From Streptomyces hoynatensis (lineage in GTDB: Bacteria > Actinomycetota > Actinomycetes > Streptomycetales > Streptomycetaceae): DNA of 64,000 nucleotides. The notes beneath the pieces are model-generated. The model made no database searches. It saw only the letters and a program-made list of their open reading frames with translations, and was not told where the DNA came from. Each line of letters begins with the position of its first letter. Within the stretch, counting starts at the first letter, position 1. A program made the position numbers and the translations under genes. Shown here piece after piece: positions 6,131 through 63,649 of this stretch. Location: positions 124,001 through 188,000 of the forward strand of contig NZ_RBAL01000010.1 in the NCBI RefSeq assembly GCF_003626535.1. The letters run 5' to 3'.

Positions 6131-6182
6131 CCGACGCGCGTCGGATGACCCGCGCGGAAGGGGCGTGACAGCGTGCTGTCAC
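6131..6182 (+). promoter_or_regulatory. Two perfect palindromes upstream of the SGNH hydrolase gene
   Basis: CCGACGCGCGTCGG (6131-6144) is a perfect 14-bp palindrome. GTGACAGCGTGCTGTCAC (6165-6182) has perfect 8-bp arms and a 2-base centre. They are 20 bases apart, and the second ends 28 bases before the TTG start codon. They may be operators or, for the first, the end of the upstream reductase transcript. Confidence 0.5.
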
Positions 6183-6210
6183 TTCCCTCACCCCAGACCC
6201 GGGAGCCGCG

Positions 6211-7533
6211 TTGACGAAGACCGCCCCCTCCCCCACCCGCATCGGCTCGGCCGCCAGGGCCCTGCTCGCGCTGCTCGCCGGCGCGCTGCTGCTCGCCCTG
6301 GCGGCCCCCTCCGCCTCGGCCACCCCCGCCCGCGGCCACGGCCGAGACGGCTGGGTGGGCACCTGGTCGACGACCGTGACCACCGTCCCCGCCTCGGAGC
6401 ACAACGCCTTCGAGGACCAGACGATCCGCCAGGTCGTGCACACCAGCATCGCCGGCGAGTCGCTCACCCTGCGCCTGTCCAACGAGTTCGGCACCACGCC
6501 GCTGGTCCTCGGCGAGGTGCACGTCGCCCGCCGGGCCGAGGGCGGCTCCGGGTCGGCGATCCTCCCGGGCACCGACCGGACCGTCACCTTCGGCGGCGCG
6601 CGCGGGATCACCATCCCCGCCGGCGCGCCCGCGCTCAGCGACCCGGTGGCGCTGCGGCTGCCCGCCGCGGCCGACCTGGTGATCAGCCTCTACCTGCCGG
6701 AGTACACCCCGGCCACCACCGTGCAGGCCTTCTCCATGTCGCAGACCTACCTCGCCGAGGGCGACGTGACGGGCGCGCGGGACATCGAGGCGACGGGCAC
6801 CAGCGACCGCTGGTACTTCCTGCGCGGGGTCGCCGTCAGGCCCGAGCACGGGGCGCGGGCCAGGGCCGTGGTCGCGTTCGGGGACTCCATCACCGCCGGC
6901 TCCTCCGTGGGCACCGACCACAGGTGGTCCGACTACCTGGCCGCGCGGCTGCGCGCCGCCCACGGGCTGCCCGACACCGGGGTGCTGAACCAGGGCGTCA
7001 GCGGCAACCGCCTGCTGCACGACCCGAACCCGCCCGCCGGCTCGCCCGCCGAGGCGTACGCCGCGCTGTTCGGCGAGAACGCGCTGGCCCGCTTCGACCG
7101 GGACGTCCTGGCCCAGCCGGGCGTCGAGTCGGTCATCGTGCTGCTCGGCATCAACGACATCGGCCAGCCGGGCACGGACGTGGCCCCGGCCTCCGAGCGG
7201 GTCGACGCCGGGCAGATCATCCAGGGCTACCGGCAGCTCATCGCCCGCGCGCACGCCCGCGGGGTGCGGGTCATCGGCGGGACGCTCGGGCCGTTCGAGG
7301 ACAACACCCTCGGCTTCTACAGCCGGGAGAACGAGGCCGAGCGGCAGGCCGTGAACGCGTGGGTGCGCACCGGCGGCGCCTTCGACGGCGTGGCCGACTT
7401 CGACGCGGCGCTGCGCGACCCGGACCGGCCCGGCCGGCTGCGGGCCGCCTACGACAGCGGCGACCACCTGCACCCGAACGACGCGGGCAACGAGGCGATG
7501 GCCGCGGCCGTACCGCTGCGGCTCTTCCGCTGA
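6211..7533 (+). CDS. Secreted SGNH/GDSL hydrolase
   Basis: 440 aa. A signal peptide is clear: basic N-terminus, hydrophobic core LLALLAGALLLALAA, and a likely cleavage after ASA near residue 37. An N-terminal beta-rich domain (about 45-210) precedes the SGNH domain: FGDSITAG with Ser226 (block I), QGVSGNRLL (Gly block), LLGINDIG (Asn block) and DHLHPND with the catalytic His near residue 424. The layout matches secreted actinomycete GDSL esterase/lipases acting on acyl esters of polysaccharides or lipids outside the cell. The start is TTG at 6211, supported by GGGAG at 6201-6205 and by giving an intact signal peptide. Two palindromes lie just upstream. It converges on the P450 gene. Confidence 0.85.
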   Translation: MTKTAPSPTRIGSAARALLALLAGALLLALAAPSASATPARGHGRDGWVGTWSTTVTTVPASEHNAFEDQTIRQVVHTSIAGESLTLRLSNEFGTTPLVLGEVHVARRAEGGSGSAILPGTDRTVTFGGARGITIPAGAPALSDPVALRLPAAADLVISLYLPEYTPATTVQAFSMSQTYLAEGDVTGARDIEATGTSDRWYFLRGVAVRPEHGARARAVVAFGDSITAGSSVGTDHRWSDYLAARLRAAHGLPDTGVLNQGVSGNRLLHDPNPPAGSPAEAYAALFGENALARFDRDVLAQPGVESVIVLLGINDIGQPGTDVAPASERVDAGQIIQGYRQLIARAHARGVRVIGGTLGPFEDNTLGFYSRENEAERQAVNAWVRTGGAFDGVADFDAALRDPDRPGRLRAAYDSGDHLHPNDAGNEAMAAAVPLRLFR

Positions 7534-7562
7534 GCCGGCCGGTCGGGGTCGCCCGGCTCAGC
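7529..7562. terminator. Bidirectional hairpin spanning both stop codons
   Basis: GCTGAGCCGG (7529-7538) and CCGGCTCAGC (7553-7562) are perfect 10-bp arms around a 14-base loop. The TGA of the SGNH hydrolase (7531-7533) and the TGA of the P450 on the other strand (7558-7560) both lie inside the arms. A likely shared terminator for convergent genes. Confidence 0.6.
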
Positions 7563-9204
7563 CGCCGCGCCGGAAGAAGAACCAGGTGGGCAGCGCACGC
7601 CAGCCGCGGCGCTGGCCGTTGTCCTGGGCCTCGCCCTCGGCGCCCGGCTCCCCCTGGGGTCCCGGCGCCGCGAACTCCCCGGCGCCGGGCCCGAACTCGC
7701 CGACGGGCGCGGGCGCGTGGGCCTCCGCGGGGCCGACGGGCGCGGCGCCCGGGGCGAAGGGCGCCACCGCCGGGGCGGGCGGGTGGTCCGAGGGCGGCAG
7801 GTCCACGAAGGGGGCCGGCTCCCCCGGGTCCGCGGCCGGCCGGCGGCTCCTGGCCAGGACGGGCAGCTCCGCCGGGACGCGCACCACGTGCGGCGGCAGC
7901 CAGGCCAGCTCGTTCTCCTCGACCGCCAGGTGCATGCCGGGCAGCCGGTGCAGCAGCCTGCTCACCGCGGAGTCCACGATCGCCAGGCCGAGTCCCCTGG
8001 CGGGGCAGGCGTGCGGCCCCGCGCCCCAGGCCATGCGGGCGCGCTGGACGCGCAGCTCGCCCGCGGCGCCGGGCGCCGCCGGGGCCTCCGGGCCCGCCCC
8101 CTCCCGCGGCGGGGCGGCCTCGAAGGGGCCGCCGGGCGCGGGCGGCCGGTCGGCCCCCGGGCCGGCGAACGGCCCGCCGAACCCCTCGCCCGAGGGGTCG
8201 ACGGCGGCCAGGCTGACGATGGCCATGTCCCCGGTGCCGATCTCCCGGCCGCCGAGCTGCATCGGGCCCTGCGCCCAGTGGTAGAAGGTGTTCTGCACCG
8301 GCGGCTGCTCGCCCAGGGCCTGGCTGGCGACCTCGGCCACCGAACGCCGGCCGGCCGCGGTCTCCCGCATCGCCTCCTCGTCGGTGAGCAGCTTCAGCAC
8401 GGTGCTGACGATCCACGCCGAACTCGCGCCCAGGCCGCTGAAAAGCAACAGCCGTGTCTGGTCGGCGAGTTCGTCCTCATCCGGGTGGGCCATGCGGGTG
8501 CAGGCGATCAGCCAGGAGGTCAGGTCGGCGGCCGGGGCGCGCCGCTTCTCGGCGATCATCTCCCGCATCACCTTGTCGACCTGACGGCTCGCCGCCTCCG
8601 ACTCGGGCCCCGCCTGGTTGATCTGGTGGATGGCGTGGGAGACGAGCGCCGCATGCGGCTCGGACATGCCGAGCAGGCCCATCATCACCAGCAGCGGCAG
8701 CGGCGCGGCGTAGCCGGAGAAGATGTCCACGGGACCGAACGAGGGCAGCGCGTCGATCAGCTGGTCGGCCAGGTGGTCGATGTAGGCGCGGGTGGCGGGC
8801 GGTCGCAGCTGGGCCAGGGTCTGGCTGACGGCCCCGCGCAGCCTGGCGTGCTCGGCGCCGTCCGAGGTCAGGGCGTGTCTGCCCGGCTCCAGCTGCGGAA
8901 GTATCGGGTGGCTCGGCACCCGGCGCTCGGCGAGGTCGCGCCACCAGCGTGAGTCGTGGGTCCACAGCCCGGACTCGTTGTGCAGCACGCTGAGCTGCTC
9001 CCGGTGGCCCAGCACGAGCCAGCCGCGGAAGCCACCGCGTTCGTCCACCTCGACGGGCACCACCGGGCCGTACTTCTCCCGAAGGCCCTGGTAGTACCGG
9101 AGGGGATCTCTCTCGAAGTCGGGGCCGTACAACGGAACGTAGGAGGCCGGACCGGCGGCGCGGGGCGGCCAGGGGGTGCCGTTTGGTGCCAGGGGCGAGG
9201 TCAT
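7558..9204 (-). CDS. Atypical cytochrome P450 lacking EXXR (CYP157-like, conservon type)
   Basis: 548 aa, longer than the usual 400-420. The heme thiolate Cys400 lies in MAWGAGPHACPAR, but the rest of the signature is altered: the K-helix EXXR position reads EQPPVQN (residues 299-305, no Arg), and the I-helix oxygen-activation motif is SGLGASSA (256-263), without the acidic-Thr pair. Loss of EXXR is known for the Streptomyces CYP157 family, often encoded next to conservons. A Pro/Gly/Ala-rich insert (about 338-382) precedes the heme loop and a long Pro/Ala tail (about 440-540) ends in WFFFRRGG. No ferredoxin gene is adjacent. ATG at 9204. It lies 150 bases downstream of the SARP gene on the same strand. 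Catalytic competence is doubtful. Confidence 0.75.
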   Translation of the reverse strand: MTSPLAPNGTPWPPRAAGPASYVPLYGPDFERDPLRYYQGLREKYGPVVPVEVDERGGFRGWLVLGHREQLSVLHNESGLWTHDSRWWRDLAERRVPSHPILPQLEPGRHALTSDGAEHARLRGAVSQTLAQLRPPATRAYIDHLADQLIDALPSFGPVDIFSGYAAPLPLLVMMGLLGMSEPHAALVSHAIHQINQAGPESEAASRQVDKVMREMIAEKRRAPAADLTSWLIACTRMAHPDEDELADQTRLLLFSGLGASSAWIVSTVLKLLTDEEAMRETAAGRRSVAEVASQALGEQPPVQNTFYHWAQGPMQLGGREIGTGDMAIVSLAAVDPSGEGFGGPFAGPGADRPPAPGGPFEAAPPREGAGPEAPAAPGAAGELRVQRARMAWGAGPHACPARGLGLAIVDSAVSRLLHRLPGMHLAVEENELAWLPPHVVRVPAELPVLARSRRPAADPGEPAPFVDLPPSDHPPAPAVAPFAPGAAPVGPAEAHAPAPVGEFGPGAGEFAAPGPQGEPGAEGEAQDNGQRRGWRALPTWFFFRRGG

Positions 9205-49894: not shown

Positions 49895-52885
49895 TCAGAT
49901 GGGCAGCGGCTCGAAGTCCCAGTAGGGCCTGACCCGGGCGCGGGCGCTGATGGTGTGCGCGTGCTGCGAGCCAAGGCTGGAGATCAGGCCGGACAGCGCC
50001 TCCTCCTCCACCTTGTCGGCCTCCCGCCGCCTGCGCAGCCCGCGCAGGTCGGTGGCCAGCGCCACCTGGCTGGAGAGGTAGAGCGGATGGGTGCGGCCCA
50101 GCACGGCCCCGGCCCGGCGCACCGTCTCCCGGCTCAGCTCCGCCGCGCCCTCCACGTCCCCCTCCAGGTTGCGGCCCGCGGCGGCGTTCAGCGCGACGCC
50201 CAGCGTCCAGGGGTGGTCGAGGCCGAGCGCGGCCGACATGTCCGCCAGGCACTCCTCGGTGAGCATGTGGGACTGCTGCCGCTCGCCGATGGCCCGCAAC
50301 ACCAGCGCGTGGTTGACCGTGGTGCCGATCGTGTAGGGGTGGCGGGCGCCGAGGGCCTCCGCGTAGTGCTTCGTGGTGCGCTCGCCGATCTCCCTGGCGA
50401 GGTCCAGGTTTCCGCGGGCACGCTGGGTGAAGGAGTAGCTGGTGGCGATGATCAGGGTCAGCGGCGAGGCGTCGCCCAGGACCTGCTCCGCGCGTTCCAG
50501 GAGCCGCGCCAGCCGGGCGCCCGCCTCCTCCCGGTCGCCGGAACGCAGCACGCACAACGCGTGGTTGAGCTCGGCGGTGAGGGTCTGCGGGTTGTTCTCA
50601 CCCATCAGGTTCCGGTGGACCTCCACGCTCTGCTCCAGGACCGACTGGGCCTCCGCGTAGCGGCCGAGGAGCCGCAGGTCCCAGGCGTACATGATCTCCG
50701 AGTACAGGGACCAGTTGTGCCGGGAGCCGAGCAACTCGCGGCGGGCCTGGAGGTTGGCCCGGTCGGACTCCAGCGCCTCCCGGTACCTGCCGAGCATGCG
50801 CAGGGAATCGGCCGCGTTGTGCCGGGCGTTGAGCGTCCTGGGGTCCAGCTCGCCGACCAGCTGCCGGTAGTCCGCGAGCACCTGCTCGCTCACCTGCAGC
50901 GCCTCGTCGTACTTGGCCAGGCCGCGCAGGTCGGCCCCGAGGCCCTCCTCGGCGCGCAGCACGGTGAGGTCGCGGGGCCCGCGGTGCGCGCTGAGGTGCT
51001 CGATGACGGCGCGGTCGATCCGTTCGGTGCGCGCGTAGTCGCCGGTGGCGCGCAGCATCGTGGCGTACTGCGAGTTGAGATCCCACACCAGCGGGTGGTC
51101 CTCGCCATAGACCTCCTTCCAGGCCCGCTCGGTGCGCTCGGCGAGCTGGATGCCGAGGGTGTACTCGCCCGCGAGGAACAGGTAGTTGAGGCAGTTGAAG
51201 ATCAGCCGGTGCATGTCGGCGTGCCGGCTGTGCAGGGCGCCGGATGCCTCCAGGTGCGGCACGATCTTTTCGAACCTGGACCACCTGCGGGTGTCGGCGG
51301 CGCGCTGCGGGTCGGCCGCGGACAGGGCGCGGCGCACCGCGCGGGAGTAGGTCTCGCGGTCCTCCTCGCTCATCCCGGCCCGCACCGTCTGGTGCACCAT
51401 GCGGTGCAGGTGGATGGTGCCGGCCTCGGGGTCGGCCTCCTGCTCGGGGCTGCCCCAGCGGATCACCGAGTACTGGATCAGCTTGTTGATCGCCGTGTTC
51501 CAGCGCAGCGGGTCCTCCATGAGGCCCGACAGCGGCTCGGGCAGGTCGGCCTGCGGAATGCCGCGCACCAGCTGGACGGGGATGGCGCCCGGCGCGAAAT
51601 GGGCGCACAGGCGCAGCAGGTCGACCGACTCGGGCACGGTCTCGCGCAGCCGGTTCAGCAGTATGGAGAAGGCGGTGTAGTACGTCATCGGGAAGTCGGC
51701 CGCCACCCGCAGGCCCGACTCCAGGTCGGAGCCGCTGTTGAGCAGGTCGACGTACTCGGCGACGGACATCGCCGAGTCGTTCAGCCAGCCCGCGGTCTGG
51801 TCCAGGGCCAGCGGGAGGTCCCCCAGGGCCGCGCTGAGCAGGTCGGCCTCGGCCGGGGTGATGCGGGGGGCGCGGCGCCTGACGAAGGCGACGGACTCGT
51901 CCCGGTCGTAGGTGGGCACCGGGTGGAGGACCGTGTTGTGCTCCTCCCACTGGCGGTTCTGCGAGGTGATGATGACGTGGCCCGGGCCGCTGGGCACCAG
52001 GTCGGAGATGGGCTCGGGGTCGTCGGCGCCGTCGAGCACCACCAGCCAGCGGGCGTACGGGGTGCCGCGGCGCAGCGCGGTGCCCACGGCACGCAGCCGC
52101 TCGCCGTACTCGGGGCCGGTGGTGAGGCCGAGGGCGGGGGCCAGCTCGGCGAGCCGCTGACGCAGCGTGCCGCGCTGGTCGGCGGGGACCCACCACACCA
52201 GGTCGTACTCCGTGCTGAACCGGTGGGCGTACTCGGCGGCGATCTGCGTCTTGCCCACCCCGGACATGCCCCACAGGGTGACGACCCCGGCGCCCGGCTC
52301 GGCCCGCTGGAGGGTGTCGTAGATGGTCTGCATGGTGTCCTCGCGGCCGGTGAAGCGCACATTGCGCCGCGGGACCCCGCCCCAGACGTGGGGCTGGTCA
52401 TAGGGGAAGCGGGGTCCCGGCCTGCCGCCGAGCGTGCTGTCGGCAGGGCCCGGGGCGGGGCCGAGCAGCCGCACGACGCGACGCTCGGCCTCCCGGACGC
52501 CGGTGCCCCACAGCTCGACCACGCCACCGAAGGCGCTCGCGGCGCCGGGCAGCGGCTGCGTGGCCACCGAGACCGCGGCGAAGCGGTGCACGTGCGGCAC
52601 GACGATGGACCTGACGGCCGACTCCCACTCCTCGTCGGTGCGCGGGCCGAGCTTGAAGTACCAGTCGCTGAGCACCACGAGCACGCGGCCCTGGACGCGC
52701 AGCAGGTCGCCAAGGGCCACGTCGAGGGGGATCTCCACCGGCGGGTTCCAGCGCTGGTAGGCGACCTCCCAGCCGTTGCGCTCCAGGCAGTCGCCGATCC
52801 ACACGGCCCAGGCCCGGTTGAACCCGGCGTAGCTGATGGTGACCCGCTCGGCCGCCGCCGGTGCGGAACTCTCCTCTGCGGTCAT
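49895..52885 (-). CDS. fxsT: FxsT-like protein: TIR-like, NB-ARC and TPR domains
   Basis: 996 aa. N-terminal TIR-like domain (about 13-145: VTISYAGFNRAWAVWIGDCLERNGWEV and LVVLSDWYF), NB-ARC/STAND NTPase (FTGREDTMQTI, P-loop GMSGVGKT at 206-213, WLVVLDGADDP Walker B, LPLALDQTAGWL), winged-helix region, then TPR repeats from about 600 to the end. This matches the tetratricopeptide protein of FxSxx-COOH systems. STAND proteins oligomerise on recognising a ligand; the TIR-like part could be the output. It is the last gene of the minus-strand run, 122 bases after the HExxH gene. No separate FxsC gene is found. ATG at 52885. Whether the TIR-like domain is an NADase is unknown. Confidence 0.85.
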   Translation of the reverse strand: MTAEESSAPAAAERVTISYAGFNRAWAVWIGDCLERNGWEVAYQRWNPPVEIPLDVALGDLLRVQGRVLVVLSDWYFKLGPRTDEEWESAVRSIVVPHVHRFAAVSVATQPLPGAASAFGGVVELWGTGVREAERRVVRLLGPAPGPADSTLGGRPGPRFPYDQPHVWGGVPRRNVRFTGREDTMQTIYDTLQRAEPGAGVVTLWGMSGVGKTQIAAEYAHRFSTEYDLVWWVPADQRGTLRQRLAELAPALGLTTGPEYGERLRAVGTALRRGTPYARWLVVLDGADDPEPISDLVPSGPGHVIITSQNRQWEEHNTVLHPVPTYDRDESVAFVRRRAPRITPAEADLLSAALGDLPLALDQTAGWLNDSAMSVAEYVDLLNSGSDLESGLRVAADFPMTYYTAFSILLNRLRETVPESVDLLRLCAHFAPGAIPVQLVRGIPQADLPEPLSGLMEDPLRWNTAINKLIQYSVIRWGSPEQEADPEAGTIHLHRMVHQTVRAGMSEEDRETYSRAVRRALSAADPQRAADTRRWSRFEKIVPHLEASGALHSRHADMHRLIFNCLNYLFLAGEYTLGIQLAERTERAWKEVYGEDHPLVWDLNSQYATMLRATGDYARTERIDRAVIEHLSAHRGPRDLTVLRAEEGLGADLRGLAKYDEALQVSEQVLADYRQLVGELDPRTLNARHNAADSLRMLGRYREALESDRANLQARRELLGSRHNWSLYSEIMYAWDLRLLGRYAEAQSVLEQSVEVHRNLMGENNPQTLTAELNHALCVLRSGDREEAGARLARLLERAEQVLGDASPLTLIIATSYSFTQRARGNLDLAREIGERTTKHYAEALGARHPYTIGTTVNHALVLRAIGERQQSHMLTEECLADMSAALGLDHPWTLGVALNAAAGRNLEGDVEGAAELSRETVRRAGAVLGRTHPLYLSSQVALATDLRGLRRRREADKVEEEALSGLISSLGSQHAHTISARARVRPYWDFEPLPI

Positions 52886-53007: not shown

Positions 53008-54393
53008 TCAGCGGCCATGTCGGCGCAGCCAGAGCGTGCGCGCGGTCTCCACGTACGCCGCCGCGCGCACCGCGTGCCCCGCGGGCGGCGGCGCCTGGCG
53101 CAGCTCCTCGTGGCGCTCCGCGATGGCCTGGACGAACAGCCGTCCGGCGTCGGTGAGTCGGCGGGCGCCGCGCAGCACCGGCAGCACGGCGGCGACCTGG
53201 GCGTGGGTGCGGGCGTGCGCCGCCCAGGCGTGGTCGCGCTCCGCCGGGTCGTCGAGGGCCAGGGCGAGGTGCTGCCAGAACGCGGCCAGCGCCAGGTGCG
53301 CGTAAGTGCCCTGGAGCAGCCCGTCGAAGGGGCGCGGGTCGGGCCGCCAGGGCGCCCAGTGGCGGCATTCCGGCCCGGCCGTGTGCAGCGGCATCAGGTC
53401 GCCGAGCGCGGAGAGCTTGGCGTGCTGGAGCTCGTGCGCGAGCCCGGCCGCGAGGTGGGCGGGCGAGGGCGGCGGGCTGGCCACGACGGCGCCGAACGCC
53501 CGCGCGCTGGTGCCGCTGTAGTGGCTCGCCCCGTCCGCGGCGGCGGCGTGCGGGATGGGCACCAGGCAGTCGAGCAGGGCGAGTTCGGCCGACCTGGCGG
53601 GTCCGCCCAGGCTGAGCAGCGGCAGGGCCTCGCGCCACAGCCGCTCCCACTGCGCGCGCTCCTCCGGCCGCAGCGCCCCGGGTCCCGCCTGCTCGGCGGC
53701 CCCGGCCCGGTGCACGAAGCGGCTGGGGTCGAGGTCGTCGAGGAGGACGAGGCGGGGCCCGCCGTCGAGGGTGTGCAGCGGCAGCCAGCCGGGGTCCGCG
53801 GAACGCCAGCTCCCCGCCTCGTCGAGGTGCACCTCGGTCGCGGCCAGGCCGGCGGGGCGGATGCGCAGCCGGCCGGGCTCGCCTGCGAGTTCGACGCCGT
53901 GGCCCTCGGGCGCCGCGCAGCGCAGGGCGCCGAGGGTGGGCAGGTGCACGCGCCCGTCGTGGACGGTCAGCCGGGTGCGGAAGCCGAGACCCGAGCGGGC
54001 CGCCGCGGCGGCGGCCAGCGAGCCGAGGTGCGCGATGTCGCGGCGCACGTCCCAGGCCGCCTCCTCGCCGGCCCGCTCGCCCTGCGCCGGGTGGCCCCCG
54101 TCGAGCCCCTGCACGCAGCGCTCGGCCCAGGGGCCGGTCAGCGAGTAGAACAGGACCTGGCGGGCGGTCTCCGGGGCGGTCTGCTCGACCTCCTGGAGCA
54201 GGTCGGCGTGCTCGGCGGCGAGCGCGGCGGCCGGGTCCCGCGGGGTGCCCGCGGCGTCGAGGGCGTCGAGGAGGACGCGCAGCAGCAGCATGCGGCGGGT
54301 GTGCTGGCCCGCGGTCAGCGCGGCCAGGGTCTCCGGGTCGCCCTCGGCGCGGCCGAGTTCGCGCACCCGCTCCGGGGCGAGGGTGGCGTTCAC
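53008..54393 (-). CDS. HExxH-type peptide-modifying enzyme of the FxS system
   Basis: 461 aa. The defining feature is HELQH at residues 320-324 (AHLAAGLAHELQHAKLSAL), followed by a Cys/His-containing stretch (GPECRHWAPWRPDPRPFDGLLQGTYAHLA), the layout of the HEXXH family found beside FxsB. Such proteins have lately been named 2-oxoglutarate-dependent HExxH-type peptide beta-hydroxylases; that activity is from family knowledge, not shown here. The N-terminal 250 residues are helical and poorly conserved. The GTG start at 54393 overlaps the fxsB stop (GTGA), so it is translated with the maturase and probably modifies the same FxsA peptide. It would work in the cytosol. Confidence 0.85.
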   Translation of the reverse strand: MNATLAPERVRELGRAEGDPETLAALTAGQHTRRMLLLRVLLDALDAAGTPRDPAAALAAEHADLLQEVEQTAPETARQVLFYSLTGPWAERCVQGLDGGHPAQGERAGEEAAWDVRRDIAHLGSLAAAAAARSGLGFRTRLTVHDGRVHLPTLGALRCAAPEGHGVELAGEPGRLRIRPAGLAATEVHLDEAGSWRSADPGWLPLHTLDGGPRLVLLDDLDPSRFVHRAGAAEQAGPGALRPEERAQWERLWREALPLLSLGGPARSAELALLDCLVPIPHAAAADGASHYSGTSARAFGAVVASPPPSPAHLAAGLAHELQHAKLSALGDLMPLHTAGPECRHWAPWRPDPRPFDGLLQGTYAHLALAAFWQHLALALDDPAERDHAWAAHARTHAQVAAVLPVLRGARRLTDAGRLFVQAIAERHEELRQAPPPAGHAVRAAAYVETARTLWLRRHGR

Positions 54394-55571
54394 CGGGCCA
54401 CCGCCCGGCGCAGGGCGTCCGCGACGTGCCGGATGAGGCGCTGCTGGTCGGCGCAGTAGACGGTGGGGTTGCGAAAGCCGGAGCCGCGCCGGTAGCGGTG
54501 GGCGTAGTGGCCGCCGCCGCACACGTCCACCAGGGCGCAGCGCCGGCACTCGGCGGACAGGGCGGCCAGGCCGTGCTGGCGGGCGGCGACGCCGGGGTGG
54601 TCCAGGGCCTCGTCGAAGGCGTTGCGGAAGACGTCGAGTCCGGTGGCGGCGGCGCCCTCGTAGGCGCTCTTGAGGGAGTCGACCTGCTCGATGCCGCCGT
54701 CGGTCTCCACCACGACGGCGGGGAAGGGGACGAGGCCGAGGTGCTCGGTGCCGCCCGGCAGGCCGAGGAGCAGGGCGATGCACTCCTGGAAGGTCCGCAC
54801 CCGCAGGCGGCGGCGGTCGGCGGCCCACCACAGGTCGAACACGGCGCACAGCCAGTCGCCGTAGGGGGCGGGCCGGTGCGGGCGCGCGGGCAGCCCGGCG
54901 GGCGGGCGGCTCCAGTTGCCGTGCGGCAGGAGGAAGTCCACGGCGGGCGGGCCGAGTTCGAGTATCGACCGGTAGACCTCGGCCGGGTCGGTGGCCAGGT
55001 CGACGACGCACAGCGCGCCGGCGTACGAGGCGCGGTGCCGCTCCGTGGCCAGCAGCCCGGCGGCGCGCCTGATGGCGGGCCAGGCGGGGCGGCCGGCGTG
55101 GTCCACGCGCTGCCCGTTGTGGTGGGCCAGGCCGCCGTCGAGGCTGAGGCCGACGGTGATGCGGTGGGCGGCGAGCACGGCCAGCTTCTCCTCGGTGAGG
55201 AGCACGCCGTTGGTCTGCACGGAGGCGTGCACGGTGCAGCCTGCGGGCGCCTCGCGCCTGACCTCGTCCACGAAGCCGCCGAGCACCGCGGGGTCGGTCA
55301 GCAGGGGTTCGCCGCCGTGGAGCACGACGGACACGGCGGGCAGCCGGTGGGCGGCGGCGTGCTCGCCGATGCGCCTGGCGATCTGCCGCAGGGTGGCCGG
55401 CGAGGCGGCGACGGGCTGCGCGCGCCAGCCCTGGTCGGCGCCGAAGTACATGTAGCAGTAGCGGCAGGCGAGGTTGCAGCGGCTGTTGACCTTGACGACG
55501 AACTGCCGGAAGGGCACGGCCCGCGGCCGGTCCTCGGCTGCGGCCTGGGTCGGGTCCGCCATTCCTCGCAC
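54390..55571 (-). CDS. fxsB: FxsB-family cyclophane-forming radical SAM/SPASM maturase
   Basis: 393 aa. Radical SAM cluster motif CNLACRYC (Cys32, Cys36, Cys39) after FRQFVVKVNS, then VVLHGGEPLLT (GGE motif), VQTNGVLL and GLSLDGG. The C-terminal SPASM-like cysteines are in AECRRCALVDVCGGGHY and VYCADQQR. FxsB enzymes join an aromatic side chain to the residue two positions later, giving three-residue cyclophanes in FxsA. The start is GTG at 55571; an ATG at 55562 is an alternative. A 23-codon reading frame ends one base before the GTG, which suggests coupling. It overlaps the HExxH gene by four bases downstream. Confidence 0.9.
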   Translation of the reverse strand: MRGMADPTQAAAEDRPRAVPFRQFVVKVNSRCNLACRYCYMYFGADQGWRAQPVAASPATLRQIARRIGEHAAAHRLPAVSVVLHGGEPLLTDPAVLGGFVDEVRREAPAGCTVHASVQTNGVLLTEEKLAVLAAHRITVGLSLDGGLAHHNGQRVDHAGRPAWPAIRRAAGLLATERHRASYAGALCVVDLATDPAEVYRSILELGPPAVDFLLPHGNWSRPPAGLPARPHRPAPYGDWLCAVFDLWWAADRRRLRVRTFQECIALLLGLPGGTEHLGLVPFPAVVVETDGGIEQVDSLKSAYEGAAATGLDVFRNAFDEALDHPGVAARQHGLAALSAECRRCALVDVCGGGHYAHRYRRGSGFRNPTVYCADQQRLIRHVADALRRAVAR

Positions 55572-55776: not shown

Positions 55777-56013
55777 CTACGACGGGAGCGAGGAGGAGCT
55801 GAACTGGCTGAACTGGTTGAAGCCTCCCCACAACCCTTCCCCGTCGCTCACCCGCTGCCGCAGCTCGTCGAGGACCTCGCTGAGCACGGGGTGGTCGAGC
55901 CTGCGCAGCTCGGTCAGGCTCAGGCCGAGCAGGTCGGGCAGGGGCTCCTCGGTGCGCACGGCCGCGCCCGCGTCGGCGGCCCGGGCGGCCGCGTCCGGTG
56001 AGTGGGTCGTCAT
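55777..56013 (-). CDS. fxsA: FxsA-type RiPP precursor peptide
   Basis: 78 aa. The leader (1-60) has an acidic/Leu-rich recognition-like part (EEPLPDLLGLSLTELRRLD, HPVLSEVLDELRQRV). The core starts after GDGEG: LWGGFNQFSQFSSSSLPS. Aromatic residues occur exactly every third position (Trp62, Phe65, Phe68, Phe71), as needed for consecutive three-residue cyclophanes. The canonical C-terminal FxSxx motif is present at 71-75 but three extra residues (LPS) follow. The ATG at 56013 is preferred because AGGAGT precedes it and because an earlier in-frame start would add a stretch covering the conserved leader DNA. It lies 205 bases upstream of fxsB. Mature product and role unknown. Confidence 0.85.
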   Translation of the reverse strand: MTTHSPDAAARAADAGAAVRTEEPLPDLLGLSLTELRRLDHPVLSEVLDELRQRVSDGEGLWGGFNQFSQFSSSSLPS

Positions 56014-56333: not shown

Positions 56334-56433
56334 GGGCGCAGACCTCAGCGGGCGCGGACCTCGACGGGCAGGCAGTCGGCGGGCGCGGACCTCGTCAGGC
56401 GCACCGGGCGCCCAGTCGGCGGGCGCGGACCTC
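56334..56433. repeat. Four copies of GGGCGCRGACCTC at the 3' end of the vWA gene
   Basis: Copies start at 56334, 56350, 56381 and 56421. The last two share CAGTCGGC before the unit and are 40 bases apart. The final copy overlaps the stop codon of the vWA-TPR gene (56432-56434). The rest of the 418-base spacer (56098-56333) is GC-rich without a gene. Confidence 0.65.
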
Positions 56434-59400
56434 AGCGGGCGCGGAGGGCGGCGAGGCGCGCCCGGGTCGGCTCCGCCTCCTCCTCGCCGCCGGGCAGCCG
56501 CCGCCACTCGTCGAGCGCGGAGCGGTAGGCCTCGCCCGCCGCGCGCGGGCGGCTCGCCTCCTCGAGGACGACGCCCCACTGGTGGTGCGCCCTGGCGGAA
56601 AGCCGCAGGATCTCCTCCCCGGCCTCCTCGGGCGCGCCGTCCTCGGCGGCGGCCGCGACCGCCCTGCGGTAGGCGTCGGCCGCCTGGTCGAGCCGCTCGG
56701 GACGGTGGGTGTGCCGGTAGGCCCTGCGGTGCGTCTCGCCGAGTTCGAACCAGGCGCGCGCGCCGGTGCGCGCCTCGCGCGCGGAGTGCGTGGCGGTGGT
56801 GAACAGGTGCTCGGCCTCTCGCAGGTCCACCAGGTCGCCGGCCTGCCGGTACCTCGCCACCAGCGCCTGTCCCAGCATCAGCAGCCGCAGCGCGAGCCTC
56901 GGGTGCCCGCCCGGCGTCTCCATCCGGCAGTCCCGCAGCACCCGCACGGCGCGCGAGACGTAGCGGCCGCCGTCGGGCAGCGAGGCGCGGACGAGCAGCG
57001 CGGCGCCCCACTCCTCGATGAGGTCGCTGTACTCCGCCCGGTCCCGGGAGACGGACCGGCTCGCCTGCTCGAAGTGCTCCGCGGCGGCGAGGAGTTCGGC
57101 CGGGTCGCCGCTCGTCTCGTAGCGCCGCCTCGCCAGCCGCCCCGAGCGGGCGGCGCAGGCGGCCCGCAGCTCCTGGTCCTCGGTCAGCCACCTGGCCTGG
57201 GCGATCGGCTCGGCCGCCGCCTCGAAGTCGCGTTCCGTCAGCAGCAGGGCGTCGACCAGGTCGAGGAGCGCGGCCACCCGGGCCCGCGGCTGGGCCGCCT
57301 CGCGGGCGAGCGCCTCGCAGCCGGCGCGCAGCGAACGGGCGGCCTGCTCGGCGTACACCCGGGCGCGCTCCGTTGCCTGCGCCGCGCCCGCCAGCCGCAG
57401 CAGCGCCCGGCCGTGCGCCAGCGGCAGCCCGCTGGGCTGGGGCCTGCCCCGCGGCCAGGCGTCGGCCACCGCCTCGACCGTGCCGACGCTCTCCTGGAGC
57501 AGGCCGGTGTCGCCGCTGAGCCGCCACTGCTCGGCCAGCACCTCCACGCGTTCGAGGGTCAGCGCCAGGGCCGCGTCCGGCGCGAGCCCCGGCGTGGCGC
57601 TGACGGCGGCGAACTCCCGGTCGGCCTGCCGCAGCAGGCGCAGCGCCTCCCCCGTGTCGCCGAGGGCGCGCCGCTCGCCGGCCGCGGCGTGCAGCACCCG
57701 GGCCAGAACGCTCCGCGCCCGCACCGAGCCCGGGTGGGTGGCGGCGGTGCTCGCGGCGGTCCTCGCGGCGGCCAGCAGCTCGGCATCGCCCTGCACCCGC
57801 CACAGCCGCAGCTGCTGCTCGGCCAGCTCGCTCCACAGCTCGGGGTCCGTGCCGCGCCCCGCGGCCCGCTGGCGGTCGGCGGCGTCGCGCAGCAGCCGCA
57901 CCGCGTCCAGCTGGTGCTGCACCTTGCCCTCGGTGGCGAAGAGTTCGGCCAGCTCGCGGGCCTGCTGCACGGTACGCGAGGGCGGCTGGACGCCGGGGGG
58001 ACCGGTGCGCCGCGCGGGCGGCTCGCGCAGGAAGCGCCGCAGCACCTTGGCGGTCACCTGGGCGAAGGGCTGCCGCAACCGCTGCTGCGCCCACTCCTGC
58101 GACCCCGGCGGCGCCGAGGGTTCGCCCGTGGGCCAGCCGATTCCCTCGGCCGGCTCGCCGAGGGGACCCGAGGCCGCCTCGGCCGCCTCGGGCGCGAGCC
58201 GCTCCCCGCCGGTGAGCTCCGCGAGGGCGAGCGCGGGGAAGTTGGGCCCGGTCCTGCCGAAGCGCTGCTCCACGTAGCCGGAGCAGTGCTTGAGCACGAG
58301 GATCGCCTCGTCGTGCCCGAGGTCGGCGAGGAGCTCGTCGTGCACGCCCTCGGCGAACGCGTACCACAGGCCGTCGCCCGCCGAGCCCTCCAGGCGCCGC
58401 ACCAGGCCGCTCAGCAGGACCTCGGAGAGCTCGGCCGGCCCCGAGTCGGGCAGCATCGTGCGCTGGATCAGCTGCATGACCGGCAGGAAGAGCGGCCCGG
58501 CCGCCAGGTAGACGGCGAGCTGCGCGGCGCCGGGCGAGGCCTGGGCGCGGAACCTGGCCACCAGGGCGGCCGGCGTCCTGGGCCCCCCGGGGGCGCGGCG
58601 CGCCGCGGCGGGCGGCTGGTCGGCGCGCACCCAGCCGACGGCGGCGGGCACCGGGCCCGCGCCAGGACCGGCGAGCAGCCCGGCCCAGGCGCCGAGCGCG
58701 CCCGGCGTGGGCGGCAGCACGGGCACCGGCACCGCGCCGGGCGGCCGGGCGGGCGGGTAGCCGAACTCCTCGGCCACGAAACGCAGTCGCGCCGAGGCCG
58801 CGGGGCCCTCCTCGCGCAGCAGCAGGCCGTGGCCCACGGGCAGCCTGGTGCGCGCCCACAGCCGCTGCGGCAGCGGCTGCACGACGGCCACCGGGGCGTG
58901 CCTGGCCAGCGAGTGCAGCAGCCGGTGTGCGGCGCCGCTGCGCCACAGCGGCCCCGTGCAGTCGCTGACGACGACGGTCAGCCTGCGGCCGGTGGGGTCC
59001 CGCAGCTGCCGGGCGGGGTGCAGCACGGCGGCGGCCGGGTCGAACCTGCGGCTGACGGCCACCGAGCCGTCCGGGGCCTCGTGCAGGTAGTGCACCTGGA
59101 TGTCGCGGAACGCGCCGAGCCTGCGGAAGACCTCGGCCAGCTCGCCGAGCATCAGCTGCCACACCCGCATCGCCGAGGCGGCGTCCATGAGGAGCTGCAA
59201 CTCGGTGTGGCCGCGCGGCTCCTCGCGGAAGGCGGGCAGCAGCAGCCCGCCGGTGCGCGCGGTCCGCTCCACCGTGGCCGCCTCGTCGATCGGCAGGTCG
59301 CCCGGGCGGCCCGGGGGCCGGGCCGGGGGCCGGTAGCGCTGCAACGGCCGCAGGGCGCGTTCGAGTTCGAGCAGGCTGGGCAGGGACCTGGCCTCGGGAA

Positions 59401-59779
59401 CGCCCACCCGCAGCGCGTCCCGTGGCGGCTCGCCCGCGCCGCCGGGGGCGCCGCCGGGGGCGCTCGCGGGGTCGGCGTAGAGCATCACGGTGTCGTCCCC
59501 GGCGCGCGGCGCCCTGCCGTCCAGCCGCGCCGGGCCGGCGGCCGGCTCCTGCCGCCGGCCCGGCCGGTGGCCGGGCGCCGCCCCCGGCTCCTGCTCCGGC
59601 CGCGGCTCCGGTGCGGCGGCGCGGCCGGCCCGGGCGGGGGGCGGGGCGGTCGGCGTCGAGTACTGGGCCAGCCACAGGGCGTCCGCGAGGCCGGTGCGGT
59701 CCGGGTCGAGCCCGGACTCGCGCAGCGCGCGGATCAGTCCCGCGAGCCGGGTGCGCTGCCGGGCAGCCGGTTCGGACAT
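56432..59779 (-). CDS. vWA-like/TPR protein (SAV_2336 family), partner of MoxR ATPase
   Basis: 1115 aa. A short N-terminal helix (RLAGLIRALRESGLDP) and a disordered Pro/Gly/Ala region (about 40-170) precede a vWA-like domain: TELQLLMDAASAMRVW, where the MIDAS reads DAASA in place of DxSxS, and RLTVVVSDCTGPLWR. The middle (about 300-500) is alpha/beta with LKHCSGYVEQRFG, and the last 500 residues are TPR-like helices (QARELAELFATEGK, AYRRAVAAAAEDG, QWGVVLEEASR). It matches the SAV_2336 protein class of Streptomyces and fits the vWA member of vWA-MoxR-VMAP conflict systems. ATG at 59779 is five bases after the MoxR stop; GTG at 59788 would overlap it. Likely a scaffold remodelled by the ATPase. 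Confidence 0.78.
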   Translation of the reverse strand: MSEPAARQRTRLAGLIRALRESGLDPDRTGLADALWLAQYSTPTAPPPARAGRAAAPEPRPEQEPGAAPGHRPGRRQEPAAGPARLDGRAPRAGDDTVMLYADPASAPGGAPGGAGEPPRDALRVGVPEARSLPSLLELERALRPLQRYRPPARPPGRPGDLPIDEAATVERTARTGGLLLPAFREEPRGHTELQLLMDAASAMRVWQLMLGELAEVFRRLGAFRDIQVHYLHEAPDGSVAVSRRFDPAAAVLHPARQLRDPTGRRLTVVVSDCTGPLWRSGAAHRLLHSLARHAPVAVVQPLPQRLWARTRLPVGHGLLLREEGPAASARLRFVAEEFGYPPARPPGAVPVPVLPPTPGALGAWAGLLAGPGAGPVPAAVGWVRADQPPAAARRAPGGPRTPAALVARFRAQASPGAAQLAVYLAAGPLFLPVMQLIQRTMLPDSGPAELSEVLLSGLVRRLEGSAGDGLWYAFAEGVHDELLADLGHDEAILVLKHCSGYVEQRFGRTGPNFPALALAELTGGERLAPEAAEAASGPLGEPAEGIGWPTGEPSAPPGSQEWAQQRLRQPFAQVTAKVLRRFLREPPARRTGPPGVQPPSRTVQQARELAELFATEGKVQHQLDAVRLLRDAADRQRAAGRGTDPELWSELAEQQLRLWRVQGDAELLAAARTAASTAATHPGSVRARSVLARVLHAAAGERRALGDTGEALRLLRQADREFAAVSATPGLAPDAALALTLERVEVLAEQWRLSGDTGLLQESVGTVEAVADAWPRGRPQPSGLPLAHGRALLRLAGAAQATERARVYAEQAARSLRAGCEALAREAAQPRARVAALLDLVDALLLTERDFEAAAEPIAQARWLTEDQELRAACAARSGRLARRRYETSGDPAELLAAAEHFEQASRSVSRDRAEYSDLIEEWGAALLVRASLPDGGRYVSRAVRVLRDCRMETPGGHPRLALRLLMLGQALVARYRQAGDLVDLREAEHLFTTATHSAREARTGARAWFELGETHRRAYRHTHRPERLDQAADAYRRAVAAAAEDGAPEEAGEEILRLSARAHHQWGVVLEEASRPRAAGEAYRSALDEWRRLPGGEEEAEPTRARLAALRAR

Positions 59780-59784
59780 CGCGG

Positions 59785-60882
59785 TCACCTCGGCTGGTCG
59801 AGGCGCTGGATGAGCTTGTCGGCCAGGCGGTCGCGGGTGGGGGGCTCGGCGTGGTGGGTGAGGTAGATCGCGTTCAGCAGCTGGTCGGTGGCCAGCTGCT
59901 CGGTGCGCGAGCGCTCCAGGAAACGGCCGATCAGGTCGTCCCCGCGGCGGGCGAGTTCGTCCCCGAGGTGGGCGCGCACCACCGTGGCGAGCCGCTCGTG
60001 GTCGGGGCGGCCGATCTCCAGGTGGATGCAGCGGCGCAGCAGCGGGGCCGGGAAGTCCCGCTCGCCGTTGCTGGTGAGCACGACGAAGGGGAAGGCGCGG
60101 CAGCGAATCCTGCCGTCCCTGACGGTGACCTTGGCGCCGTCGTCGGTGAGGACCTCGACCTCGGGCTCGCGCTCGGCGATCCGCTCCAGCTCCGGGATGG
60201 CGAACTCCCCCTCCTCCAGGACGTTGAGCAGGTCGTTGGGGAGGTCTATGTCGCTCTTGTCGAGCTCGTCGATGAGCAGCACCCGGGGGGTGGCGGTGGG
60301 GAGCAGCGCGGTGCCCAGCGGGCCGAGGCGCAGGTAGCTGCCGATGCCGCCGGGCACGGCGGTGGGCTGGGCGCCCGTGGCGCGCATCCCGGCGGCGATC
60401 TGGGTGTCCTGGAGGCGGGCGATGGCGTCGTAGTGGTAGAGCCCGTCGCCGAGGGTGGTGCGGCTGACGATGGGCCAGTGCAGCACGCGGCCGAGCCCGA
60501 GCTCGTAGGCCACCGAGTGCGCCAGGGTGCTCTTCCCGGTGCCGGGGTTGCCGGTCACCAGGAGCGGACGGCGCAGGTAGAGGGCGGCGTTGATGATCTC
60601 CAGCTCGTCGGGGCTCGGCCGGTGCATCTCCGCCAGGTGCCGGTACAGGCCGAGCCGCCTGGTGGTGGTCGTGTCCGCCTCGGGCCCTTGCGCGACGAGC
60701 GGGCCGCCGTCGAAGTCCCGCCACGGCGGGGGCTTGGGGAGCATGCGAATGCCGTCGTGCGGCTCCCCGGCGCCCCGGTAGATCAGCCACTCGCGCGCGG
60801 CGCCTGCGGCCGGCTCCTGGCCGGCGGCCTCCGCTGGCCCCACGGGCGAGTTGGTGTCGGCGTTGGTCTCAGCCTCTGCCAC
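59785..60882 (-). CDS. MoxR-type AAA+ ATPase
   Basis: 365 aa. Walker A GNPGTGKS (111-118), Walker B VLLIDELDKSD (201-211), sensor 1 in FVVLTSNGERDFPAPLLRR with the arginine finger region, and a C-terminal lid. Typical of MoxR ATPases that act on vWA proteins. The N-terminal 60 residues are disordered, with REWLIYRGAGEPHDG conserved-looking. The GTG at 60882 is chosen because GAGGAG lies six bases upstream; other in-frame starts lack a site. It ends five bases before the vWA gene start, so the two are coupled, and follows the VMAP gene after 123 bases. The triad VMAP-MoxR-vWA is the reported core of this conflict system class. Confidence 0.87.
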   Translation of the reverse strand: MAEAETNADTNSPVGPAEAAGQEPAAGAAREWLIYRGAGEPHDGIRMLPKPPPWRDFDGGPLVAQGPEADTTTTRRLGLYRHLAEMHRPSPDELEIINAALYLRRPLLVTGNPGTGKSTLAHSVAYELGLGRVLHWPIVSRTTLGDGLYHYDAIARLQDTQIAAGMRATGAQPTAVPGGIGSYLRLGPLGTALLPTATPRVLLIDELDKSDIDLPNDLLNVLEEGEFAIPELERIAEREPEVEVLTDDGAKVTVRDGRIRCRAFPFVVLTSNGERDFPAPLLRRCIHLEIGRPDHERLATVVRAHLGDELARRGDDLIGRFLERSRTEQLATDQLLNAIYLTHHAEPPTRDRLADKLIQRLDQPR

Positions 60883-61005
60883 AGCATGCTCCTCGTCGTT
60901 CGTCGACCGTCCGGGGCGCGGGCGCCTCGACCGTATCGGGGCGGGTACCCGCCGCATAGGGGCTTTGCGCGCTTCCCCGGCCGCCGCCGCGCGCGCCCGC
61001 GCGCG

Positions 61006-63147
61006 TCATGGCGCCTCCAGCGGGTCGTCGGCCCCGGGAAGCGGGTGGCCTGGGTCGGCGTACAGCAGCGCAAGGCCGTGCGACCAGGAGGTCTCGGCGG
61101 CGTCTTCCGCGGCCCTGGCCCTCAGCCGCCACAGGGCGGCGGGCAGCCGCCCCGCCCGGTCCGCGAGGGCGACGGTGCGCTGCACCCCGCCGTGGAAGCC
61201 CGCGCACTCGGCGGGGCGCGCGGGGGGTTCGCGGCGCCACAGTATGACGTTGTACCCGCTGGCCATCACGCGATGCAGCGCGGCCGGCTCGCCGCCGCTC
61301 GCCGGGGTGCGGCACAGCACGGGCACCGTGGACTGGTCGCGGCCGATCAGCGCGGCCGGCTCGGGCAGCGGGCGCGGCTCCTCGTGGGCGCAGTCGAGGA
61401 CCTCGGAGCGCATGGGGCCCTGGTGCACCCGGTCCCAGCGGCGCAGCCGCAGTGCGAACAATTCCTCGCTGTCCTCGGCCTCGGGCACCGGGTCGGTGCA
61501 GCGCACCACCACCGGCCGCAGCTCGCCGATCGGCGGCAGCCCCGGGCCCAGCCGCCAGGTCTCGACCGGCAGGCCGAGCAGCGAGTACGGCAGGGCCGCC
61601 TGGAGCCGCACCGGGCGCTCGGGCCGATCGGCGCGGCGGAAGGCCTCGGTCAGCGCGGCGCGCAGCCTGCCGGGCGGGTCGGCCGGGCCGACGGCGCGGA
61701 AGTCCTCGTCCACCGAGACGAGTTCGCCGCCGGGGCCGGGGGCGCACACCCGCCAGTCGTATTTGCCGCGCTCCCAGCCGTGCGGGGTGAGTTCGAGCAG
61801 CACGTATGGCTCGTCCTCCGCCGCAGGACCGCGCGGCGCTGGCACGCCGTCCACGGGGGCGGGGACGGCCTCGGGGGCGAAGCCGGCGCCCCCGCCGGCC
61901 GGCACCTGCGGCGGGGGCACGATGGCGGCGCCCGCGGCCACCACCCGCTCCCGGCCGAAGTCGGGCAGCCGGTCACGCGCCCTGAGCCTGGCGTTCGCCT
62001 CCTGGCGCAACGTCGTGCGGAACCAGCGGGAGAGGTCGGGCGCGCCGGCCGCGGTGCGGTGCGCCCAGGCGAGCAGCGCCTCCTCCGTCCCCGGCCTGGC
62101 GGGGTGCGGGCGGTCCGCGGTGGCGGCCAGGACGGCGTACCTGAGCACCACCTCCAGCTCGTCCTGGCCCTGGCCCGGGTCGTAGAGCCGCCCCAGCCCG
62201 TCGCGCCAGCCGCGGGGGGCGGGCAGCGGCTCCTTGTAGCTGCGGTGCAGCACCTCGGTGACCAGCCTGTCCAGGCTCGCGCTCGACGTGGGCGGGGGCA
62301 ACTCGGCGAGCAGGCCGAGCAGTTCGACCCGCTCGCCGGGGCTGAGGGCGCGCTCGCCCGTGGCCCGCAGGTCGCTTTGCGCGTCGGTCCAGGTGGCGTC
62401 GGCGGCGTGGTCGTCGCGGTGCCGGGCGGCGTGGTGGCGGTCGTGGGCGTGCATGACCCGCTGGTAGGTGTCGTCCGCCTCGGCCGCGACCGGCCCGGCG
62501 GGCCGCGGCAGCCGCCGCAGCTGGAGCACGGAGGTGGCGAGGCCGCCGTCCCTGCCGGTACGGCGGGCCTTGAGGACGCCGATGACCTCGCCGCGCTCCA
62601 GGTCCACGAGGGGGCCGCCGGAGACGCCGCGCGGTACCTCGTCCTCCGGGCCGAGCTTCAGCTGCCCGTCGCCGCCCATCTCGCCCCTGATGGTGCACCG
62701 GCCGCTGAGGTGGGCGATGCGCCCGGCCTCCCCGTCGGGGGCGACGCAGCCGAAGAACGCGACCTCCTTGGAGGTGAAGACCCTGGCCGTGCGTTCGGTG
62801 AGCCAGACGCACTCGTGCGGGATCGGGTCGACCAGCCTGACCAGGGCGAGGTCGGGGGCGGGCCAGCGGCCCTCGCCGCGGTGCTCCATCGGCTCGGCCC
62901 ACTCGACCAGCCCGAGGGCCGGGCTGGTCATGTCGCCGAAGATCAGCCCCACTTCGCGACCACCTCCCTCGGCCGGTCCCCCGCCGAGTGCCACGTGCGC
63001 GCAGGTGAGCACCCAGTTCGGAGCGACGAAGAACCCGCTGCCCCTGGGTCCGGTCGTCGACTCGCCGTCGGCATACCCCCTCGGCGGGTCCTGAATGCGT
63101 ACGGTCGCCGCCTCGACGAGTGGCGCCAGGGACTCAAAGGGGTCCAT
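61006..63147 (-). CDS. Trypsin-like protease with VMAP C-terminal domain
   Basis: 713 aa. N-terminal trypsin-like domain with intact triad: His51 in WVLTCAHVALGG, Asp99 in APDLALVRL and Ser176 in PRGVSGGPLVD. A middle helical segment (about 245-345: ERVELLGLLAELPPP, VLHRSYKEPLP) resembles an effector-associated helical domain. The C-terminal half (about 430-713: LLELTPHGWERGKYDWRV, LPYSLLGLPVETWRLG, WRREPPARPAECAGFHGG) matches the vWA-MoxR-associated protein C domain. No signal peptide, so the protease works in the cytosol and is presumably kept off until triggered. ATG at 63147 overlaps the preceding gene by 14 bases. Substrate unknown; FxsA or FxsT are possible but unsupported. Confidence 0.85.
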   Translation of the reverse strand: MDPFESLAPLVEAATVRIQDPPRGYADGESTTGPRGSGFFVAPNWVLTCAHVALGGGPAEGGGREVGLIFGDMTSPALGLVEWAEPMEHRGEGRWPAPDLALVRLVDPIPHECVWLTERTARVFTSKEVAFFGCVAPDGEAGRIAHLSGRCTIRGEMGGDGQLKLGPEDEVPRGVSGGPLVDLERGEVIGVLKARRTGRDGGLATSVLQLRRLPRPAGPVAAEADDTYQRVMHAHDRHHAARHRDDHAADATWTDAQSDLRATGERALSPGERVELLGLLAELPPPTSSASLDRLVTEVLHRSYKEPLPAPRGWRDGLGRLYDPGQGQDELEVVLRYAVLAATADRPHPARPGTEEALLAWAHRTAAGAPDLSRWFRTTLRQEANARLRARDRLPDFGRERVVAAGAAIVPPPQVPAGGGAGFAPEAVPAPVDGVPAPRGPAAEDEPYVLLELTPHGWERGKYDWRVCAPGPGGELVSVDEDFRAVGPADPPGRLRAALTEAFRRADRPERPVRLQAALPYSLLGLPVETWRLGPGLPPIGELRPVVVRCTDPVPEAEDSEELFALRLRRWDRVHQGPMRSEVLDCAHEEPRPLPEPAALIGRDQSTVPVLCRTPASGGEPAALHRVMASGYNVILWRREPPARPAECAGFHGGVQRTVALADRAGRLPAALWRLRARAAEDAAETSWSHGLALLYADPGHPLPGADDPLEAP

Positions 63148-63649
63148 GACCGCCGCCCGTGCGCCCCCCGTGCTCTCCCGCGCCGTCCGGGCGTCCCAGC
63201 TCCTCGGGCGGGCCGCCCTGCCAGGTCAGGGTGACCGAGATCGCGGCCTTGGCCTCCCCGTCGGCCAGCAGGCCGACCACCTTGCCCGCGCGCGCGGTCA
63301 GCTCGATGCCGAAGGAGACGCTGACCTCGTCGGGCCGGGCGGCCCGCAGCCCTTCGGCGACGGAGGCCGCGACCCCGGTGATCAGGCCGCGCAGGCTCTC
63401 CATCCTGGTGGTGCCCGCCGGGCGGGGCCGCGCGCGAAAGCCGGTGTCCGTGTAGCCGTCGTCCCCGGCCTCCCCGGTCTCCTCGGCCTTCTCGCCCCGG
63501 CTTCCCCGGGCGCCCCCCTGGCCCGGCCGCCCCTCCTCCTGCTCGGGCGAGCGCCTGGCCCCGGGCGGCGCCAGCTGCTCGGCCTCGGAGATCCGGGCGA
63601 GCACCGGCGTGCCGTCCGGCAGGCTGATCCGGGTGATTGCGCTGCTCAT
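63134..63649 (-). CDS. Trypsin-co-occurring (Trypco1-like, CU044_2847 family) protein
   Basis: 171 aa. Two conserved-looking ends flank a charged disordered middle (about 30-80): the first strand pair MSSAITRISLPDGTPVLARI, and the C-terminal domain MESLRGLITGVAASVAEGLRAARPDEVSVSFGIELTARAGKVV, LADGEAKAAISVTLTW. This is the pattern of CU044_2847/Trypco1 proteins, which sit next to trypsin-like genes of conflict systems and may hold the protease inactive. ATG at 63649 with GGGGG upstream. Its end overlaps the protease start by 14 bases, so translation is coupled. It is the first gene of the eight-gene minus-strand run. Confidence 0.83.
   Translation of the reverse strand: MSSAITRISLPDGTPVLARISEAEQLAPPGARRSPEQEEGRPGQGGARGSRGEKAEETGEAGDDGYTDTGFRARPRPAGTTRMESLRGLITGVAASVAEGLRAARPDEVSVSFGIELTARAGKVVGLLADGEAKAAISVTLTWQGGPPEELGRPDGAGEHGGRTGGGHGPL

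Follow-up and report, generated by a model that had tools for sequence, protein, structure and literature searches.

We propose that fxsA of Streptomyces hoynatensis encodes an FxSxx (triceptide) precursor in which a single ring site has been multiplied to FNQ-FSQ-FSS within one Streptomyces lineage, a reading that we hold with moderate confidence. The FxsA family is known, and the tripled site is a variant of that lineage. Judged from the sequences, the best reading is that two or three repeated ring sites would be used; at least two rings seem more probable than a single one, which is still a serious rival, and the formation of all three is less certain. The gene lies in a window of 64,000 nucleotides (the whole stretch of DNA that was analysed) among the following genes:

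49895..52885, minus strand: TIR-NB-ARC-TPR protein of the FxSxx system, predicted effector (NF040586; TIR_2, NB-ARC, TPR)
53008..54393, minus strand: aKG-HExxH-type peptide beta-hydroxylase, a separate gene (TIGR04267, 147.7 bits, cut-off 40; HELQH)
54390..55571, minus strand: fxsB, radical SAM/SPASM cyclophane-forming maturase (TIGR04269, 442.8 bits, cut-off 370)
55777..56013, minus strand: fxsA, FxsA-type precursor of 78 amino acids (from the translation; leader with conserved HPVL, core C-terminal)
56432..59779, minus strand: SAV_2336-type protein, located where the ternary system has its vWA-TPR component (NF041121)
59785..60957, minus strand: MoxR-type AAA ATPase (AAA_5; bpMoxR below cut-off)
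61006..63147, minus strand: VMAP with a trypsin-like domain (VMAP-C and Trypsin_2)
63134..63649, minus strand: Trypco1 protein (PF19493; NF041216)

Downstream of fxsA lie fxsB, the HExxH gene and the TIR-NB-ARC-TPR gene; upstream lie the SAV_2336-type, MoxR, VMAP-trypsin and Trypco1 genes. By its family assignments the locus is an FxSxx-type peptide-processing system of the VMAP-ternary conflict loci, as these are described in the accessible text of PMC7159879, which takes the zincin-like protein of such loci for a protease and only predicts the role of the peptide, as a toxin or a signal. The SAV_2336-type protein (56432..59779) has no Pfam match, and a vWA role would be ascribed to it by analogy with the loci of that text. 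FxsB, listed with a GTG start (its fourth codon is ATG), carries the radical SAM cysteine motif CNLACRYC. The fxsB and HExxH genes overlap by four bases (GTGA, window 54390-54393), which suggests translational coupling.

The gene order of the window was compared, protein by protein, with 15 stretches from relatives. The order VMAP-MoxR-SAV_2336-FxsA-FxsB-HExxH-TIR protein was matched in eight of them (L069, L070, L071, L074, L084, L090, L132 and L136), and the order from MoxR on in ten, that is, in these eight together with L073 and L079. The stretches L075 and L106 end at contig ends; FxsA of L077 was unmatched in the protein comparison, yet was found there by the profile; and neither HExxH nor FxsA was matched in the stretch of L088. 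No stretch gave a match to Trypco1, whose gene would lie beyond the limits of most of the 15. The locus of L072 (Streptomyces sp. 7-21) is rearranged, one strand carrying FxsB and HExxH and the opposite strand FxsA, the SAV_2336-type protein, MoxR and the TIR protein. In L132 (Streptomyces specialis, 6001-8185) the best match covers only residues 13-202 of FxsB and 9-345 of HExxH; these genes may be broken or the draft sequence faulty. At 73 named FxsB loci the HExxH gene stands apart from FxsB in 40 and is fused to it in 14, with 19 unmatched, some of the stretches being short.

The fxsA translation (window:55777-56013, minus strand) comprises 78 amino acids and a stop and ends with the residues GLWGGFNQFSQFSSSSLPS; a putative ribosome-binding-like GGAAGGAG stands immediately 5' of its ATG. 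Its C-terminal part is made up as follows:

55822..55830, minus strand: W62-G63-G64, no ring site (Gly in the linking position; relatives have W-x-F)
55830-55828, minus strand: codon of W62
55813..55821, minus strand: unit 1, F65-N66-Q67, which aligns with the single motif of the relatives
55821-55819, minus strand: codon of F65
55804..55812, minus strand: unit 2, F68-S69-Q70
55812-55810, minus strand: codon of F68
55795..55803, minus strand: unit 3, F71-S72-S73, where FxSxx begins
55803-55801, minus strand: codon of F71
55780..55794, minus strand: C-terminal extension, S74-S75-L76-P77-S78

The four aromatic residues are positioned as the initial annotation had them, except that W62 to the end makes 17 residues and not the 18 stated there. 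The translation likewise bears out an FxSxx followed by three extra residues: LPS comes after FSSSS, and the extreme C-terminus is not FxSxx. Against TIGR04268 the protein scores 27.3 bits (cut-off 28), and in the whole-genome searches 28.0 bits, printed as over the cut-off of 28. The context typical of TIGR04268 is present, the FxsB (TIGR04269) and NF040586 neighbours both scoring above their cut-offs, and the sequence supports the annotation of fxsA as an FxsA-type precursor adjoining an FxsB radical SAM enzyme. Comparison of FxsA with solved structures gave no credible match (best E 0.0015 over 21 residues).

Among 200 genomes of the family, 57 had FxsA relatives; a profile search of 392 genomes of the genus gave them in 81, and FxsB relatives came from 285 of 394 genomes, the window genome being counted in each case. 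A further search for relatives matched 16 of 100 genomes, all known already, and gave no match in 39 new genomes from other families. The 155 FxsA hits yielded 113 distinct cores (HPVL to end), 105 of which, the window included, could be anchored; four hits without HPVL and eight cores without the anchor were left out of the counts. Also left out were 30 loci from the 30 genomes (among the 392 of the genus) matched by a DNA pattern of tandem Phe codons, a pattern that excluded Ser at the third codon and left the window's genome unmatched. The anchor permits only W or N and then demands an aromatic residue, so the first aromatic is present in 105/105 cores by construction and is no evidence. 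The commonest core, found in most of the 105, is the single motif LW(G)F[ND][NS]xx: the first aromatic is F in 102, Y in two and W in one, the residue after it is N or D in 85, and the next is N or S in 89. Gln occupies X3 in 8/105. The FxSxx-COOH register, with exactly four residues after the aromatic, is found in 69 cores; the chain extends past FxSxx in the other 36, the window included, and in 17 of these by one residue.

Between LW or LN and the first aromatic, the 105 cores have G (76), A (19), D (7), N (1), T (1) or, in the window only, GG. The gap is one residue in the other 90 Trp-bearing cores and two in the window, by an extra Gly; a period of four aromatics is thus weaker than it appears, because the +3 spacing of the window Trp comes from this one Gly. 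Asn replaces Trp in 14 of the 105 cores (with an anchor that allows only W or N). Given this spacing and these replacements W62 is placed outside the series, neither its founder nor its member; the better description of it is a conserved boundary residue. The strict period of three claimed for all four aromatics consequently stands for F65, F68 and F71 and falls for Trp62. That WGG lacks a side chain at the linking position was correctly noted, Gly having no beta carbon substituent, and WGG therefore offers no ring site of the i to i+2 type; with Gly in the linking place, a fourth cyclophane, and with it a row of four consecutive rings, is rejected.

Counted from the first aromatic, an aromatic residue occurs at +3 in 8/105 cores and at +6 in 2/19, and never at +1, +2, +5, +7 or +8 (105, 105, 36, 18 and 16 cores, respectively); at +4 it occurs in 46/105, always as the C-terminal residue. 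Within eight residues of the first, extra aromatics that are not C-terminal are thereby confined to +3 and +6; farther out there are two C-terminal Trp residues (at +9 and +13) and one core (L023/L068), outside the window clade, with aromatics at +10 and +12. FNNFV, one of the eight cores with an aromatic at +3, is too short for a second triplet. Seven distinct cores contain such a triplet in full, those of the window, S. avicenniae (FNQFSSFNQS), S. radicis and strain SBT349 (both FTQFDD), strain MP131-18 (FTQFDN) and two of S. harbinensis type (FDEFAP); a third is confined to the window and S. avicenniae. The latter keeps Phe at +3 and +6 like the window but differs from it in several residues at X2, at X3 and at the end. 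Since the extra aromatics of the first eight residues stand only at +3 and +6, FNQ, FSQ and FSS are probably repeated ring sites. The comparison of core periodicity called for in the initial annotation cuts both ways, the period being absent from 98/105 cores, yet kept in the closest ones; the repetition itself is upheld by three Phe triplets in register in S. avicenniae and a second triplet in three near relatives, and the rings are a prediction from it. In shuffles of the 13-residue tail after F65, the two downstream Phe fell at +3 and +6 in a fraction of 0.013, and of 78 placements 6 show a constant period of any length (F at k and 2k). Shuffling the S. avicenniae tail likewise yields 0.013; the tails being homologous, the two values are not independent.

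A scan of 394 genomes of the class with TIGR04268 gave matches in 56 at an E-value of 1e-4 or less. Besides the window and G098, the other 63 of the 65 listed places were read, four of which were not FxsA-like at the end and were dropped; the rows were judged by eye, the automatic first aromatic being an upstream His in several, and no statistic was drawn. L308, in a genome of another family, has FSAYGD, with a second triplet at +3; position +6 holds a second FxS in L302 and a Tyr in L294. However, aromatics also occur at other distances in L283, L285, L295, L308 and L317, and second or third aromatics of the class stand also at +5, +7, +8 and +9, so the period-of-three register is no general law. 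In L256 (match 1501-1626), from another family, a tandem pair FNSFSS precedes a long tail, and directly downstream comes an FxsB relative (50 % identity). L285 (G818:C1:4129800-4130700) has the core SAHTSTTHNSSFSQGTW, with three possible His/Phe sites in irregular spacing, and the start of an FxsB relative adjoins it. Several cores bear an aromatic three residues before the usual one, with Gly in the linking place in YAGFQS (L255, L270) and Ala in YAAFDS (L266) and FAAFQN (L272); this Ala, unlike the Gly of WGG, could accept a ring.

The careful FxsB tree has 42 rows, 15 of 57 having been dropped as divergent, duplicate or half-filled (S. specialis among them). The window, S. avicenniae, MP131-18, S. 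radicis and SBT349, the last placed by half its FxsB, form a clade with a support of 96/87, and FxsB identity of its members to the window is 73 to 78 %. The S. harbinensis type stands outside this clade; the minimum number of changes between one and several units is two, and a second gain of the unit as FDEFAP is doubtful. In the branching order of the clade the window comes first, then S. avicenniae (one inner fork is weak, 95/62), and three units may for this reason be the older state, a matter that the tree cannot settle. S. specialis, which has one unit, was grouped with the window clade by the quick tree (88), on half a sequence; the row L091 of that tree (branch 2.12), probably a wrong reading frame or a stray, was used as root only. 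The units are encoded by TTC AAC CAG, TTC AGC CAG and TTC AGC TCC in the window and by TTC AAC CAG, TTC AGC TCG and TTC AAC CAG in S. avicenniae, and from the likeness of these triplets the units perhaps arose by 9-bp tandem duplication. Between the two species the Phe codons are unchanged while some linking, middle and end residues differ; over these very few sites, the constancy of Phe fits selection on the register.

The use of more than one site is favoured by the family assignments of the locus, together with the conserved gene order, the clade, the +3 and +6 register that S. avicenniae shares, the tandem pair of L256 and the nearness of FxsB to ChlB; it is opposed by the 98/105 cores without a full second triplet, the looser register across the class, the single unit of S. 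specialis, the core with aromatics at +10 and +12, and the Gln of units 1 and 2, which is missing from the linking partners in the accessible text of PMC11002830. The alternative to be taken most seriously, which we nevertheless regard as unlikely, is a single ring only, at F65 or at F71, the other Phe residues being passive and maybe making hydrophobic contacts. F65 is aligned with the single site of the relatives, and no complete second site exists in 98/105 cores; for F71, F71-SSSS matches FxSxx and a Phe-Ser linkage is printed for MscB in the same source. A single ring leaves unaccounted for that extra aromatics short of the C-terminus stand, within eight residues, only at +3 and +6 and are kept there in S. 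avicenniae. A neutral origin of the extra triplets, by a 9-bp tandem duplication that is tolerated and functionless, seems to us improbable, even though slippage without selection could have produced units that so resemble a 9-bp tandem repeat: the window codons read TTC AAC CAG, TTC AGC CAG and TTC AGC TCC, TTC AAC CAG occurs twice in S. avicenniae, and there are two or three copies inside the clade and one in most of the 42 tree rows. It sits less well with Phe at +3 in all five clade rows and at +6 in two, with the neighbouring codons changed, an argument that is weak given the few sites. That FxsA is unmodified in this strain because FxsB or the precursor has decayed is very improbable, for although the FxsA score borders the TIGR04268 cut-off, FxsB is far above its own, HELQH is kept, the reading frames are uninterrupted and the leader shows conservation.

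The ends after the core vary among neighbours (SMLNA, DDIA, DNNVDL and others), and nothing conserved corresponds to LPS. All 15 rows of the window's group (starred in the quick tree) extend beyond FxSxx, so the displaced C-terminus is, as read from these rows, a group trait of unconserved sequence. R54 is invariant in a 25-row FxsA alignment, and Lys and Arg are absent after it in the window FxsA. Trypsin would thus be unable to remove LPS, and the trypsin-like protein, put forward earlier as its trimmer, is rejected on this ground and by the differing extensions of neighbours. A trypsin-like cut at R54 could release the 24-mer VSDGEGLWGGFNQFSQFSSSSLPS, which carries all three units.

For the repeated-site reading we propose that FxsB would bind the HPVL leader of FxsA and join each Phe ring to the beta carbon two residues on (Q67, Q70 and S73), with a loss of two hydrogens per ring. 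The HExxH enzyme would then hydroxylate beta carbons of the cyclised core; the family roles predict N66 or the ring residues as its targets, and they also predict the final step, in which the modified product would signal to or arm the TIR-NB-ARC-TPR effector of the VMAP conflict system. In its fullest form, which we put forward tentatively and think rather unlikely to hold in every part, the native FxsB would make three adjoining cyclophanes, two of them Phe-to-Gln, to give a short and rigid peptide with partial hydroxylation; its number of rings would vary between species with the 9-bp copy number and so tune the TIR-NB-ARC signal. The cores form a natural series of one, two and three sites, each with a closely related enzyme, on which iteration and direction of the synthase, as well as the ability of Gln to serve as linking partner, can be tested; if it is true that ring number matters to the TIR-NB-ARC effector, the series would also provide a handle on the role of the peptide.

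Among the matches listed from the open-access literature, which lacks the key triceptide and ChlB papers, we recognised no publication on tandem FxsA cores, and we do not claim their absence from print. The NF041709 YxD-tail peptide that goes with YhhB resembles the window FxsA in the leader (31.7 bits); however, this is below the cut-off of 55, FxsB is also under the cut-off of the YhhB model (341.7 bits, cut-off 445), and the YxD tail is absent. The family of MscB, named IPR026335, is presumably FxsB. In the accessible text of PMC11002830, where that name is used, the triceptide 3-CyFE enzymes XncB, OscB, MscB, YxdB, HaaB and YhhB connect an aromatic residue i to the beta carbon of residue i+2, which agrees with the annotated linkage to the residue two positions on; MscB joins Phe C4 to the beta carbon of Ser, and further linking partners are Asn, Asp, Arg and Ala. 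The same i to i+2 link is predicted in the window, whose Gln is not among the partners listed there. The FxsA/FxsB system of actinobacterial VMAP-ternary loci, as far as described in PMC7159879, has the leader and all neighbour genes in common with the window, which differs in three contiguous aromatic triplets instead of one, in an FxSxx that is not C-terminal and in Gln as X3 of two units. ChlB from Chlorogloeopsis (9gm3, E 1.6e-73) is the solved sequence closest to FxsB, and for the HExxH protein there are two solved relatives, 22nu (E 2e-22) and, less near, ChlH (8s5f, E 1.2e-5). PMC12636437, in its accessible part, connects ChlB/ChlH with cyclophane formation and beta-hydroxylation, and a title in its reference list calls ChlB a multiple cyclophane synthase. 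ChlB and ChlH are fused in the protein described there, whereas the window has separate genes.
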